NCBI GenBank assembly: GCA_023129535.1
Contig: JAGMBW010000064.1
Coordinates: 1-32,993, forward strand
Direction of reading: 5' to 3'
Source of the DNA: Desulfobacterales bacterium
Lineage (GTDB): Bacteria; Desulfobacterota; Desulfobacteria; Desulfobacterales; C00003060
DNA length: 32,993 nt
The position numbers and the translations under genes were made by a program. The stretch's first letter is position 1. Each line of letters opens with the position of its first letter. Shown here piece after piece: positions 7,799-20,196 of this stretch. The notes beneath the pieces are model-generated. The model had not been told where the DNA came from, did not search any database, and worked only from the letters and a program-made list of their open reading frames with translations.

Positions 7799-8674
7799 AT
7801 GAGCTTTAGAGAAGCCCTGGAATCAGGAAAATTTGTGGTGACCGCTGAGGTCGGCCCGGATAAGGGGACCGACATAGAGCATTTATTGAAGGATGCTGAT
7901 ATAGTCAAAAATCGGGTTGATGCTATTAACGTTACTGACCTGCAGAGTTCGGTTATGCGTCTTGGTTCCATGGCAGTCTGTCACTTATTGGTTGACAGAG
8001 GAATAGATCCTATTTTTCAAGTCACTTGCAGAGACCGTAACCGTCTTGCCCTGCAATCGGATTTGCTTAGCGCGTGGGTTCTTGGGGTAAGAAACGTCCT
8101 TGCCTTAACTGGCGATCATCCTACCCTCGGGGATCATCCCCAGGCTAAACCGGTTTTTGACTTAGATTCTGTTACCCTTTTAGAGGTAATCCGTAAGCTG
8201 AATTCCGGATCCGACATGGCAGGAAATGAACTTCGGGGTGCCCCTGAGTTTCTCCCTGGTGCAGTCGTGAATCCCGGAGCTGATAATGAGGCCGCTTTAG
8301 AGCTCCAGATCATGAAGATGGAGAAAAAGATTGAGGCAGGGGCCAGGTTCTTTCAAACCCAGGGGGTGTATGACCTGGATGCCTTTGAAAAATTCATGAA
8401 GCGCATCGAGGGGTTTCATACGAAGGTCCTGGGAGGTATTATCCTGCTCAAATCAGTGGGCATGGCCCGGTACATGAACAGGAATGTTGCAGGTGTCTTT
8501 GTTCCGGAAACCTTGATTCAGGAACTAAAAACAGCCGAGGACAAAGCTCGGGTCAGTATCAATATAGCTGTTCGCCTCATTAAAGGGATGAAAGATCTTT
8601 GCGATGGGGTTCATATTATGGCCCTTGGCTGGGAAAGTAAAATCCCTTCGATCCTGGATGCAGTAAAAGAGTGA
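7799..8674 (+). CDS. metF: second methylenetetrahydrofolate reductase (MetF)
   Basis: FVVTAEVGPDKG, NVTDLQSSVMRLGS, LALTGDHP, FFQTQGVYD; paralogous to 3439-4356. Confidence 0.9.
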   Translation: MSFREALESGKFVVTAEVGPDKGTDIEHLLKDADIVKNRVDAINVTDLQSSVMRLGSMAVCHLLVDRGIDPIFQVTCRDRNRLALQSDLLSAWVLGVRNVLALTGDHPTLGDHPQAKPVFDLDSVTLLEVIRKLNSGSDMAGNELRGAPEFLPGAVVNPGADNEAALELQIMKMEKKIEAGARFFQTQGVYDLDAFEKFMKRIEGFHTKVLGGIILLKSVGMARYMNRNVAGVFVPETLIQELKTAEDKARVSINIAVRLIKGMKDLCDGVHIMALGWESKIPSILDAVKE

Positions 8675-8686
8675 TCAGTTTTTCTT

Positions 8687-8844
8687 GTAAATTCTCAATA
8701 AGTTCGGATTACAGTCATTGCGAGCGAAGCGAAGCAATCCCTTTGATAGCAGTGAGATTGCTTCGTCGTCCGCCTGCGTCGGCCTCCTCGCAATGACACG
8801 AAATAACAGTTTCAGGCAATTGCCCGGACTTATTGAGAAGTTAC
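8687..8844. mobile_element. MITE-like palindromic element, copy 1
   Basis: 21-bp terminal inverted repeats gtaaattctcaataagttcgg (8687-8707) / ccggacttattgagaagttac (8824-8844), 19/21 match; inner inverted TCATTGCGAG...CTCGCAATGAC. Confidence 0.75.
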
Positions 8845-8881
8845 CCAAAAACCAAAGAGGATCAGTGAATGGAGTCTAAAG

Positions 8882-9136
8882 ATGGATCACCATCATCACC
8901 ATGAAAATGAAGAGCCTGGAGCTCACGGACCACTATCAACAAAGGGAAAACTCTCCAAACTGTTGGAATACTGGATTAAACACAATGAAGACCATGTTAG
9001 GACCTACCTTGAATGGTCGAGGCGCGCACGAGAGGAAGTCTCGCAGGAAGTATCTTCTCTTCTGGAGGAGGCAGCACAAATGACAGTATCCATGAACGAA
9101 AAGTTCAAGCAAGCATCAGAAAAGCTTTTTACCTAG
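8882..9136 (+). CDS. small His-rich protein, candidate metal-binding/nickel accessory factor
   Basis: 84 aa, N-terminal MDHHHHHENEEPGAHG followed by predicted helical region; sits between metF2 and cooC. Confidence 0.65.
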   Translation: MDHHHHHENEEPGAHGPLSTKGKLSKLLEYWIKHNEDHVRTYLEWSRRAREEVSQEVSSLLEEAAQMTVSMNEKFKQASEKLFT

Positions 9137-9143
9137 GTTGAGC

Positions 9144-9266
9144 GGTTCAACGTTCACGGTTCTGGCTGTTTAACCTTTGAACCCCTGGCCCAGACCTGGA
9201 TTTATCAGCTTGTAGCCTATGATAAGCAGGAGCGCCAGGGCGGGCTTGAACCTTGAACCTTGAACC
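9144..9266. repeat. inverted-arm short tandem repeat (GGTTCAA / TTGAACC)
   Basis: left arm ggttcaacgttcacggttc (9144-9162); right arm cttgaaccttgaaccttgaacc (9245-9266); inner CCCTGGC/GCCAGGG (9183-9189/9234-9240). Confidence 0.65.
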
Positions 9267-9351
9267 GATTACTTTCGGAGATACTCGATTCTGGTTTCTG
9301 GATGCTGGAAAGAAAAATTAGAGTGCAGGGACGCGGTAGAAGGATGGCTAT

Positions 9352-10194
9352 ATGAGTACCCTTATTGCCATGGCCGGCAAAGGGGGCACGGGCAAAACCA
9401 CGATTGCAGGTTTTCTGATCAGGTTTCTCCTGAAAATCGGCATCAAGCCAATACTGGCCGTGGATGCGGATCCCAATGCAAATCTGAATGAGGTCCTTGG
9501 AATCAACGTAGAGAGCACCGTTGGTGAGGCGAGAGAGGGGCTTAAGGATGGCGTACCCGCGGGTATGACCAGAGATGTGTACATGGAATATAAACTTCAC
9601 GAGTCCTTGATAGAAAGTGATGGGTATGATCTTATTGTTATGGGGCGCCCGGAAGGAGCTGGTTGTTACTGTCATGCTAACGCCCTGTTGTCCCGGTATA
9701 TGGAGCAGTTGTGCGCAAATTATCAGGCCGTAGTTATGGACAACGAGGCAGGCATGGAGCATATTAGTCGCCTGGTAGTGCGTCGCGCTGATCTTTTGTT
9801 GATTGTGTCTGACCCCACGCAGCGGGGGATACTTGCAGCCAGGCGTATTCGTGACCTTACCCGGGAACTTAAGGTCGATGTCAAGAAAGACTACCTGATT
9901 ATAAACCGAGTCAACGGCGAGTTGGCGCCAGCAGTCAAGAATGCGGTCGATGCCGCAGGATTGAATCTGGCCGGATGTATCCCGGAAGACAAGTTAATTC
10001 TGGATTATGACGAGGATGGGCAACCCACAGCGCTATTGCCAGACAATGCCAGTTCGGTTCAGGCTTTGTATGGCATTTTTGAGAGCATACTATCTGTCAG
10101 AGACTTGGAAACTGAAAAAATCCCCCCTAGCCCCCCTTTCTCAAAGGGGGGGAACAATATAAAGTCCCCCTTTGTAAAGGGGGGAACAATATAA
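9352..10194 (+). CDS. cooC: CooC-type ATPase, CODH nickel insertion/maturation
   Basis: P-loop MAGKGGTGKTT, VDADPNANLNEVLG, GAGCYCHAN (CxC), NEAGMEHISR; C-terminal ~25 aa derive from a repeat. Confidence 0.9.
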   Translation: MSTLIAMAGKGGTGKTTIAGFLIRFLLKIGIKPILAVDADPNANLNEVLGINVESTVGEAREGLKDGVPAGMTRDVYMEYKLHESLIESDGYDLIVMGRPEGAGCYCHANALLSRYMEQLCANYQAVVMDNEAGMEHISRLVVRRADLLLIVSDPTQRGILAARRIRDLTRELKVDVKKDYLIINRVNGELAPAVKNAVDAAGLNLAGCIPEDKLILDYDEDGQPTALLPDNASSVQALYGIFESILSVRDLETEKIPPSPPFSKGGNNIKSPFVKGGTI

Positions 10195-10309: not shown

Positions 10310-11161
10310 GTGAGTGTAGTTAATATGGGGATCAAAAAAGAGGCTCCAAAGAGTGGATTTCGGCTTGCAGTAGCCGGCAAGGGAGGTGCAGGAAAGACTA
10401 CCCTTGTCGCTTTGCTGGCAGAGCTTTTCGCAAGAAATGGCTATCATGTGCTGGCAACTGATGAGGATCCTCAGATGAATCTGGCTTTGAGTCTTGGGGT
10501 CTCCTTTGAGGAGGCTGAACAGATTGTCCCCTTGAGTCAGAACAATGCCTATATTGAGGAAAAGACAGGGGCAAGCCCCGGTTCGGGTTGGGGAGGTTTT
10601 TTGCGCCTTAACCCGGACGTTAGTGATGTGGTGGAACGTTTTGGATTGCGGATAAAACCGAATCTATACCTTGTTGCCATGGGGTCGGTTGAGCAGGCGG
10701 ATACAGGATGTCTGTGCCCGCAAAACAATCTGCTAAAGGCAGTGCTCCGGCATATTGTTCTGAAATCCGATGATATCATTCTAACAGATACTCAGGCCGG
10801 TCCAGAGCACTTTGGACGTGGTTTGCTTAAAGACTTTTCCCTCCTGCTGGTCGTGGCAGAACCAACTGCAGCAGCCCTTCAGGTGGCAAAGAAATCGGTG
10901 GTACTGGCAAAGCAATTGAGGATTGCACACCAAAAACTGGTGGTAAATAAGGTGCAAGAAAGAAAGGATCAACTCAAGGCAGAAGCCCTGATGGAGCATT
11001 TTGGCAGTGAATGGCCCTCCACCTATTTTCTACCGTATGCCCCGGATCTGCTTGCCATAGAACCGCAAGTAGCCTCCGTTCTTACCAAAAATAGCAGATT
11101 CGCCAGGGCTGTTCAGGGACTTTTCAAAGATGTTGAAGCACTGATTCCCTTAGGCGAGTAA
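10310..11161 (+). CDS. cooC: second CooC-type ATPase
   Basis: AGKGGAGKTT, TDEDPQMNLALSLG, DTGCLCPQN (CxC), DTQAGPEHFGRG; GTG start. Confidence 0.88.
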   Translation: MSVVNMGIKKEAPKSGFRLAVAGKGGAGKTTLVALLAELFARNGYHVLATDEDPQMNLALSLGVSFEEAEQIVPLSQNNAYIEEKTGASPGSGWGGFLRLNPDVSDVVERFGLRIKPNLYLVAMGSVEQADTGCLCPQNNLLKAVLRHIVLKSDDIILTDTQAGPEHFGRGLLKDFSLLLVVAEPTAAALQVAKKSVVLAKQLRIAHQKLVVNKVQERKDQLKAEALMEHFGSEWPSTYFLPYAPDLLAIEPQVASVLTKNSRFARAVQGLFKDVEALIPLGE

Positions 11162-16156: not shown

Positions 16157-16204
16157 GAAATGACGAGTGACAAATGACAAATGACAGCGAACAAAGTGAG
16201 CAAA

Positions 16205-16843
16205 ATGACAAATGACAAATTTGAACCAAAGATACTCGGTTTCTTGTGCAATTGGTGCTGCTATGCCGCGGCCGATTCTGCAGGTGTGGCCCGTTTTCAA
16301 TACCCGCCAAATATCAGGGTGATCAGAGTCATGTGTACGGGAAGAATCGATCCGGTCTTTATCATGGAGGCCTTCCGTGCCGGGGCGGACGGCGTATTTG
16401 TCGGTGGCTGACAACTCGGCGAATGTCATTACCAGGTCGGTAATTATGATGCCATAGTAACTGCCCACGTTACCCGGAAGGTAATGGAGGTTGCAGGCGT
16501 AAAGCCCGAGAGGCTTGCCCTGGAATGGGCTTCGGCTGCCGAGGCCCCCCTGTTTGTGCAGTTGATCACGACATTTACCGACCGGATCAAGCAACTCGGT
16601 CCACTGGGGGACCCCGAAGCAATGACGCGAGAAGAACTGAACTTACAGTTGTCGGCAGCCAGCTCTGCTGTGCAAAGCGTTAAACTTCGAATGCGATTCG
16701 GCAAGCTTGCCCAACAACTAAGAAAGCAGAATGAATACTCCGGTAATGTGATTCAAGTAAAGATGGCCGAAAAGGTAAACGATACGATAATACGTGAGAT
16801 GGCAAAAACCCTGAACCCTGAACCGATTACTTTAGTTCCTTAA
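16205..16843 (+). CDS. mvhD: MvhD-like [2Fe-2S] subunit, selenoprotein with in-frame UGA (Sec) at 16409-16411
   Basis: [22 protein letters not shown]...[40 protein letters not shown]...; ORFs 16181-16411 and 16484-16843 share a frame; possible upstream start 16181. Confidence 0.88.
16428..16444 (+). promoter_or_regulatory. candidate bacterial SECIS element for mvhD2
   Basis: ATTACC-AGGTC-GGTAAT, perfect 6-bp stem, GGTC loop beginning 24 nt after the TGA. Confidence 0.75.
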
Positions 16844-17988: not shown

Positions 17989-20196
17989 ATGTCAAAGATA
18001 ATTTGTTCTGCTGCAATTCGCGGCGCCCACAAGATTGTGCAAAGGGCAGAAGCAGAGTATCAGGCGGCTATGGAAAAATGGGGGCCCGACCAGGAAATAG
18101 GGTTTCCTAACACGGCCTACTATCTTCCCATTATCTATGGCATATTGGGGATTGGTGTGAAAAAACTCAAGGATGCCAAAGACGTCCTTGATCGGTGCAG
18201 ATCTCTACTCCCTGATATGGTAGCGGAACATGTATGGCTTCCGTATCTTGCGCCGGCGCTTGAGGCTGGGATGGCCACATTCTTTGCAGAAGAGATCATT
18301 GAGGCGATACGATATCTTGAGTCTCCGGATTACTATACCAGGACAGAAGGGCCTGCTGATGGGAACATCTGGTTGGGCGCGGCTGATGACGTCATATTGC
18401 GCAAGCGTGGAGTGGAGTTTGTTGACGGCACGGCCCCTGGCTTTGCGGCTATTCTGGGCGCTCCGCCAACCAAAGAAATCGCTGTCCAGCTTGCGCAGGA
18501 ACTTCAGGAGAAGAATCTTTACGTCTTTATGTGTTCCGATCATGAAGGACGCAAAATGTCTGAGCTCCTGGTAGAGGAAGGTGTCCAGATAGGATGGCCT
18601 ACGCGTCTTGTCTCGTTTGGGCCTGAATATACCGCGGCTGTATTTGCCATGGGCTTTGCGACACGGGTAGCCATGTCCTTTGGCGGCATAAAGCCGGGCG
18701 ATTTTACAGGGAACCTTATTTACAATAAAGATCGCGTCTTTGCCTTTGCCATGCCGCTTGGCACAGTAACTGACGAATGGTACGCCAATGCTGCTGGCGC
18801 TATAAACTGGAGTTTTCCGACCATTGCCGACACCCCCATCCCCGAGATTCTCCCCACAGGGATCTGCACCTATGAGCACGTTGTTTCCAACGTGCCCTAC
18901 GATCAACTTGTGTCCAAGGCTATCGAGGTAAGGGGACTGAAAGTTACTGTTTCGGAGGTGCCAGTTCCTGTTTCTTTTGGGCCTGCTTTTGAGGGTGAGC
19001 GCGTCCGTAAGGATGATCTTTACCTCGAATGTGGTGGGCCAAAGAGCCAGGCTGTGGAATGGGTTACTACCAGGGATATGGATGAGGTAGAAGATGGAAA
19101 AATTGAACTGTTTGGTCCTGATGTGGATGATGTGGAGGAAGGGTCAAGGCTCCCCTTAGCCATAGTGTGCGAATTTGCAGGGAGAAAGATGGAGGAAGAC
19201 TTTGAGCCGATCCTGGAAAGGCAGATTCACCACTTTGTCAATCATACCCAGGGCCTTATGCATATTGGCCAGAGAGACATCACCTGGATAAGGATGTCTA
19301 AGGCTGGTCGTGCAAAGGGACTCAAGCTTAAACATATTGGATCTGTCCTGCACGCCAAGTTTCATCAGGAATTTGGGGCCATCTTTGATAAGGTCCAGAT
19401 CAAACTCTATACCGAACAAGAGAAGGTAAGAGAGAGCGTTGAAGAGGCAAAGCGCTCATACGAGTATCGGGATGCCCGGATCGAAGGGATGACTGATGAG
19501 ACGACAGAGATGTTTTATTCTTGCACGCTATGCCAGTCTTTTGCACCAAGTCATGTTTGCATTATCAGCCCGGAGAGGACGGGGCTGTGTGGGGCGTATA
19601 ACTGGATGGACTGCAAAGCCTCTTACGAGATTAATGCCACAGGACCTAATCAGCCTGTGGAGAAGGGGGAATGCCTGGACCCAAAACTTGGACAATGGAA
19701 GGGGTGTAACGAATTCATTTACAAGGCATCACGGGGCGCAATCGATCATTACAGCCTTTACAGTCTCATGCATGACCCAATGACCGCCTGTGGTTGTTTT
19801 GAATGTGTTGCTGCAGTCCTTCCGATTTGCAACGGTGTGATGACGGTAGATCGTGATTACGCAGGGATGACACCCTGCGGGATGAAGTTTACCACACTTG
19901 CTGGAACTATCGGCGGTGGTCTCAGTACGCCAGGCTTTATGGGACATAGCAAATATAACATTACCCAGAAAAAATGGATCAGTGCGGATGGCGGGATAAA
20001 ACGCCTGGTCTGGATGCCCAAATCCTTAAAAGAAGAGATTGGGCACCGCCTGAAGGAATCCTCGGAACGGGTTGGGATCCCGGAACTGCTGGATATGATT
20101 GCCGATGAAACCGTAGGGATTTCTGAAGAGGAAATCCTTCCGTTTTTAGAGGAGAAAGGCCATCCGGCCTTGTCCATGGATCCGATACTGGAATAG
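17989..20196 (+). CDS. acsB: acetyl-CoA synthase catalytic subunit
   Basis: A-cluster motifs FYSCTLCQSFAPSHVCIISPER, MTACGCFECVAAVLP, AGMTPCGMKFTTLAGTIGGG; 735 aa. Confidence 0.95.
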   Translation: MSKIICSAAIRGAHKIVQRAEAEYQAAMEKWGPDQEIGFPNTAYYLPIIYGILGIGVKKLKDAKDVLDRCRSLLPDMVAEHVWLPYLAPALEAGMATFFAEEIIEAIRYLESPDYYTRTEGPADGNIWLGAADDVILRKRGVEFVDGTAPGFAAILGAPPTKEIAVQLAQELQEKNLYVFMCSDHEGRKMSELLVEEGVQIGWPTRLVSFGPEYTAAVFAMGFATRVAMSFGGIKPGDFTGNLIYNKDRVFAFAMPLGTVTDEWYANAAGAINWSFPTIADTPIPEILPTGICTYEHVVSNVPYDQLVSKAIEVRGLKVTVSEVPVPVSFGPAFEGERVRKDDLYLECGGPKSQAVEWVTTRDMDEVEDGKIELFGPDVDDVEEGSRLPLAIVCEFAGRKMEEDFEPILERQIHHFVNHTQGLMHIGQRDITWIRMSKAGRAKGLKLKHIGSVLHAKFHQEFGAIFDKVQIKLYTEQEKVRESVEEAKRSYEYRDARIEGMTDETTEMFYSCTLCQSFAPSHVCIISPERTGLCGAYNWMDCKASYEINATGPNQPVEKGECLDPKLGQWKGCNEFIYKASRGAIDHYSLYSLMHDPMTACGCFECVAAVLPICNGVMTVDRDYAGMTPCGMKFTTLAGTIGGGLSTPGFMGHSKYNITQKKWISADGGIKRLVWMPKSLKEEIGHRLKESSERVGIPELLDMIADETVGISEEEILPFLEEKGHPALSMDPILE

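Follow-up and report, generated by a model that had tools for sequence, protein, structure and literature searches.

The window, that is, the whole 32,993-nucleotide stretch of contig JAGMBW010000064.1 from a Desulfobacterales bacterium, carries a small open reading frame with a His-rich N-terminus ahead of genes for carbon monoxide dehydrogenase (CODH) and acetyl-CoA synthase (ACS). The features around it are as follows.

7799-8674: metF-like gene, preceding the His-rich open reading frame
8871-8874, + strand: GGAG, likely ribosome-binding site, 7 nt ahead of the ATG
8882-9136, + strand: His-rich CooJ-like protein of 84 aa (open reading frame translation, family profile, CooJ alignment)
9352-10194, + strand: CooC-type ATPase 1 (cooC1), a CbiA/MinD-type P-loop ATPase gene adjoining acsA
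10310-11161, + strand: CooC-type ATPase 2, 38-39% identical to the cooC found beside family members at loci L091, L095, and L100
11181-13136, + strand: acsA, CODH catalytic subunit, presumed nickel client (TIGR01702, 614 bits)
17989-20196, + strand: acsB, acetyl-CoA synthase, presumed nickel client (NF040764, 1090 bits)

The surroundings form a large Wood-Ljungdahl cluster containing acsD, acsB, acsC, a methyltransferase, NuoE/NuoF-like genes, formate dehydrogenase subunits, HdrA, and MetF. Translation of window:8882-9136(+) yielded MDHHHHHENEEPGAHGPLSTKGKLSKLLEYWIKHNEDHVRTYLEWSRRAREEVSQEVSSLLEEAAQMTVSMNEKFKQASEKLFT, a protein of 84 aa starting with MDHHHHH. By our estimate, five consecutive His residues would arise by chance in an 84-aa open reading frame with a probability of about 1e-7 (at about 2% His). 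The genome encodes a single copy. Differences between the gene and its nearest relatives fall mostly at third codon positions (for example, 19, 16, and 40 at positions 1, 2, and 3), as expected for a protein-coding gene. The coordinates, translation, and conservation of the open reading frame were thus borne out, confirming that it is a real, conserved gene; the protein was claimed by no Pfam or NCBIfam family.

A first-pass annotation, made from the sequence alone, had placed this gene immediately upstream of two cooC genes and acsA. The gene order is correct, but a gap of 215 nt (9137-9351) separates the gene from cooC1. This spacer contains short repeats of the CCTTGAACCTTGAACCTTGAACC type, and a palindromic MITE-like inverted-repeat element with 28-nt arms (TCATTGCGAGCGAAGCGAAGCAATC) lies upstream of the gene at 8680-8851; a 25-mer of this element recurs in the unrelated locus L236. 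Because of the gap and the upstream element, co-transcription with cooC in the window genome is only putative. Elsewhere in the window, an FlpD/MvhD-type gene (16181-16843, + strand) contains one in-frame TGA (16409-16411; GVFVGG*QLGECHY) at a position where relatives would have Cys. This TGA may encode selenocysteine; its surroundings gave no SECIS-type Rfam match.

No hypB match was found in the window genome. CooT (PF10133) is encoded twice in the same genome (L241 and L242), on contigs C75 and C76, which differ from the contig of the only CODH gene found there. The lack of a hypB match together with two CooT genes elsewhere fits a nickel economy centered on CODH/ACS. The window protein had also been proposed as an analogue of CooT. 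This did not hold: the protein gave no match to PF10133, so CooT identity was rejected, and the two CooT genes elsewhere in its own genome led us to reject replacement of CooT as well.

Relatives were detected in 88 of the 146 genomes of the order by protein search and in 94 of 146 with a profile, and the family was present in 109 of the 297 genomes of an even, phylum-wide sample. A profile search (A2) of a named genome collection returned 80 loci, almost all from Desulfobacterota, although its pattern, W[IVL]xHN[DE]DH[AV], cannot catch other subfamilies and says nothing about other phyla. Plasmid searches revealed no family relative and no CooJ-bearing operon.

Outside the window, cooC adjoins the family gene in only three genomes, all of the same genus (L091, L095, and L100). 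At L091 and L095, 11 nt lie between the stop codon of the family gene and the cooC ATG; at L091, the next gene after cooC encodes a transketolase, not CODH. In the order at large, the family gene sits amid unrelated genes, including an opposite-strand PBP1A gene at 27 loci and GNAT, TVP38-like, PGK, and proteasome-type genes; names given to neighbors outside the profile scans are presumptive and reflect our reading of the sequence. In genome G414, the family gene directly follows a DUF364/DUF4213 "putative heavy-metal chelation" gene (L229:4721-5482). Since nearly all members outside the genus are located away from cooC and CODH, the adjacency to cooC and acsA used in the first-pass annotation is a weak argument. 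The gene neighborhood is weak evidence, and alone it would not back the idea of a nickel factor. That most relatives stand alone next to unrelated housekeeping genes would also suit a general His-rich metal buffer of anaerobes, one that binds zinc, cobalt, or nickel and has no dedicated part in delivery to CODH/ACS; its position near CODH in the window would then be accidental. The tight cooC linkage within the genus speaks against such a buffer.

The protein itself has the following parts.

8882-8929, + strand: N-terminal His-rich tail, residues 1-16, predicted to be disordered (pLDDT about 54-62)
8939-9037, + strand: hairpin helix 1, residues 20-52 (AlphaFold2, pLDDT 97-99)
8969-8995, + strand: motif Y30-W31-x2-H34-N35-x2-H38, located by alignment with relatives and with CooJ HFLDHVEGH
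9044-9127, + strand: hairpin helix 2, residues 55-82 (AlphaFold2, pLDDT 97-99)

The family core follows the pattern H-W-x2-H-N-x2-H-x3-Y-x2-W, set in an alpha-helical hairpin joined to a disordered His tail. W31, H34, N35, and H38 are invariant, and H30, Y42, and W45 nearly so. Most relatives carry the motif as H-W-x2-H-N-x2-H, matching CooJ HFLDHVEGH; among 189 unique sequences, 176 have His at the first position, seven have Tyr, and four have Phe, and nearly all have the remaining motif residues. The window protein (YWIKHNEDH) has Tyr in place of the first His and agrees with the CooJ motif at its other three positions, and its nearest relatives (L111-L115, 54-57% identical) likewise have Tyr or Phe there. 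The His tail is N-terminal in 143 of the 189 sequences and C-terminal in 12; the other 34 have a short tail or none. Structure prediction of a C-tail member gave the same hairpin with the tail at the opposite end.

Some members carry additional domains. Members from one family, f111 (L210:1486-2067, L217, L238, and L185), have a conserved Cys-rich domain (MCGGCENINTCGIPYA) at the C-terminus, after the hairpin and a short His tail; this domain gave no Pfam match. Two distant genomes encode fusions of the family core with a putative TrmO/TsaA-type (UPF0066) domain (L109:5620-6291 and L222:4962-5759).

Foldseek searches with the window protein and the C-tail member placed both near halves of rubrerythrin, sulerythrin, and ferritins, all with E-values above 0.1. 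These top ranks for sulerythrin, rubrerythrin, and encapsulated ferritin, together with a weak sulerythrin profile match (3e-5) and an EncFtn-like match of the window protein (17.3 bits), would suit a small iron protein of the ferritin or rubrerythrin type, with an encapsulated-ferritin-like hairpin and the His tail as an add-on. We set this reading aside as highly improbable. The EncFtn-like score lies below the Pfam cutoff of 27, such a match occurred in only 1 of 63 members, and it falls after the motif; the invariant residues are His, Trp, and Asn, the shape is merely that of a simple helical hairpin, and all fold E-values were above 0.1.

Co-occurrence with CODH was tested within the order. 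Because genome G044, an apparent co-loss, proved to have ACS, ACS and the phylum-wide sample were adopted later. In the Desulfobacterota sample, the family was present in 101 of 191 ACS-positive genomes versus 8 of 106 ACS-negative genomes (p = 2.5e-16, not corrected for the species tree). Near-complete genomes of the order gave 63 of 82 versus 1 of 12 (p = 7.5e-6, likewise uncorrected for the species tree). As a nickel control we used hypB, a marker of nickel-iron hydrogenase maturation, which gave p = 0.16 in the near-complete genomes of the order and was flat in the phylum sample (73/202 versus 36/95, p = 0.80). The ACS effect held separately inside hypB-positive and hypB-negative genomes, and when the data were collapsed to the GTDB families whose labels were shown, the family occurred in 45 of 64 ACS-bearing families versus 5 of 25 others (p = 3e-5, again uncorrected for the species tree). 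Roughly half of the genomes with ACS do not carry the family. Of the eight ACS-negative carriers in the phylum sample, two have CODH (G308 and G332), three are incomplete genomes (G147, G148, and G371), and three are near-complete: G177, whose copy is a fusion with a TrmO-like domain, G307, and G314. Within the order, G070 is a further near-complete ACS-negative carrier. The family thus occurs in sulfate-reducer-type bacteria almost only alongside acetyl-CoA synthase, and the association with CODH genes that the first-pass annotation had implied was upheld in the form of co-occurrence with CODH/ACS and not with hypB.

These data also bear on the general metal buffer. It gains from the genomes that carry the family without ACS or CODH (G070, G177, G307, and G314) and from the many tails that are long HDHDH arrays. 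Against it stand the strong and specific co-occurrence with ACS, absent for hypB, and the conservation of a CooJ-type core rather than of the tail (34 of 189 sequences have a short tail or none). We consider a general buffer unlikely.

The CooJ core motif is said to have been given by Alfano et al. in 2019 as H(W/F)x2Hx3H, and the Rhodospirillum rubrum CooJ sequence (6hk5) carries it as HFLDHVEGH. Comparison of profile A9, built from C-tail relatives, with PDB sequences returned this CooJ as the best match, with a PDB-wide E-value of 0.058 that is not significant by itself. The gapless alignment pairs CooJ KRLGIYLAHFLDHVEGHMGE with the profile EKLRvLlpHwieHNeeHatE, and the match spans the hairpin. 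E-values for CooJ with other profiles were 0.15 (A3) and 0.098 (A5). Shuffled CooJ sequences scored as high as the real one in 0 of 149,000 cases with A9 and in 2 of 145,000 with A3, counts that are somewhat optimistic because several profiles preceded A9, which was arrived at in part to make the CooJ alignment visible. Masking the three motif His residues lowered the CooJ score from 15.8 to 5.8 bits. Broader family profiles matched CooJ more weakly (13 and 142 of about 49,000 shuffles were as good). Against the PDB, short family profiles lost the CooJ match, single family sequences did not find CooJ, and His tails drew in His-tag artefacts. Remote homology between the family and CooJ is therefore likely, not proven, and the window protein is probably a distant, rearranged CooJ relative. 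The proposal that it is a functional analogue of CooJ gained support, and the likeness reaches beyond what had been proposed: the family core has the CooJ motif, and CooJ is the best PDB match of the C-tail profile.

The resemblance of the core to CooJ, a nickel protein, also weighs against a cobalt or corrinoid factor, which would supply cobalt rather than nickel to the corrinoid iron-sulfur protein or methyltransferase of the Wood-Ljungdahl pathway. In favor of such a factor, the corrinoid protein is a further requirement of genomes with ACS, and at about 14 distinct loci the family gene and an AcsE-like methyltransferase gene converge. In genome G348, the family gene lies about 5 kb from an ACS operon containing RACo, cooC, acsD, acsA, and acsB. 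The convergent methyltransferase gene, however, is not co-transcribed with the family gene, and within the genus it is cooC that directly shares an operon with it. A role in cobalt supply appears quite improbable.

The reading we favor, and hold to be probable, is that the protein is a CooJ-like nickel-binding dimer that stores nickel and delivers it to CODH/ACS. The family, its motif, the predicted hairpin, the likeness to CooJ, and the link with ACS are results of the analysis; the metal, the dimer, and the hand-over are inferred from the nickel role of CooJ (PMC6006190) and the anatomy of the protein. In R. rubrum, CooJ binds nickel, and cells need it to grow on CO when nickel is low (PMC6006190). 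The two-helix hairpin core would most likely homodimerize, as CooJ does, and the HWxxHNxxH stripe on helix 1, with His at i, i+4, and i+8, could form a nickel site. In the window protein, where the first motif position is Tyr, H34 and H38 would be left to form this core site. The flexible His tail may contribute weaker buffering sites. Such a protein would hold cytosolic nickel and, when nickel is scarce, might work with the CooC ATPases to pass it to CODH and probably also to acetyl-CoA synthase. A broader proposal, which we offer tentatively and regard as rather doubtful, is that a tail-swapped CooJ-type protein encoded outside CODH operons is a common nickel reservoir of Wood-Ljungdahl Desulfobacterota, serving both ACS and CODH.

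CooJ is considered a rare protein limited to a small number of CODH operons, with 68 candidate genes (PMC13056359), although there is also a report of CooJ in Desulfobulbales (PMC11247825). If the family is CooJ-like, nickel-storage chaperones for CODH/ACS would be widespread in a major carbon-cycling phylum and would have been overlooked because they are tiny, lack a family model, and are encoded apart from the CODH operon. The family offers a concrete, testable candidate for the protein that supplies acetyl-CoA synthase with nickel, and it might help in producing CODH/ACS in other hosts.

Among known systems, HypB, SlyD, UreE, and Hpn have His-rich stretches of the same kind as the family tail, and stretches of this kind bind several nickel ions, with Kd values in the micromolar range (table in PMC8704837). 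These proteins nevertheless have no domain in common with the family, and hypB does not co-occur with it. CooT is likewise a small CODH accessory nickel protein, but it is beta-rich (PMC6006190), whereas the window protein is predicted to be all-helical. The predicted hairpin resembles half of the four-helix bundle of rubrerythrin/sulerythrin and of encapsulated ferritin (EncFtn, EncB); in place of their Glu/His di-metal ligands the family has a His motif, and, unlike them, it consists of a separate hairpin plus a His tail. CooJ has the most in common with the family: small size, a helical core with H(W/F)x2Hx3H, a His-rich flexible tail, and occurrence in CODH genomes. The CooJ-type architecture, a helical hairpin or coiled coil with a flexible tail, is also that of the AlphaFold2 model of the window protein. 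The differences are that the CooJ tail is C-terminal, whereas that of the window protein and of 143 of 189 members is N-terminal; that CooJ has the first motif His, which is Tyr in the window protein; that family members have an invariant Asn and a conserved Tyr/Trp after the motif, which CooJ lacks; and that family genes lie mostly outside CODH operons, unlike cooJ, which is in an operon with cooC/cooT. Because it has neither the first motif His nor a C-terminal tail, we do not file the window protein as CooJ proper; it appears to be a CooJ-like protein whose tail sits at the opposite terminus, and its family far exceeds in size the CooJ set described so far.
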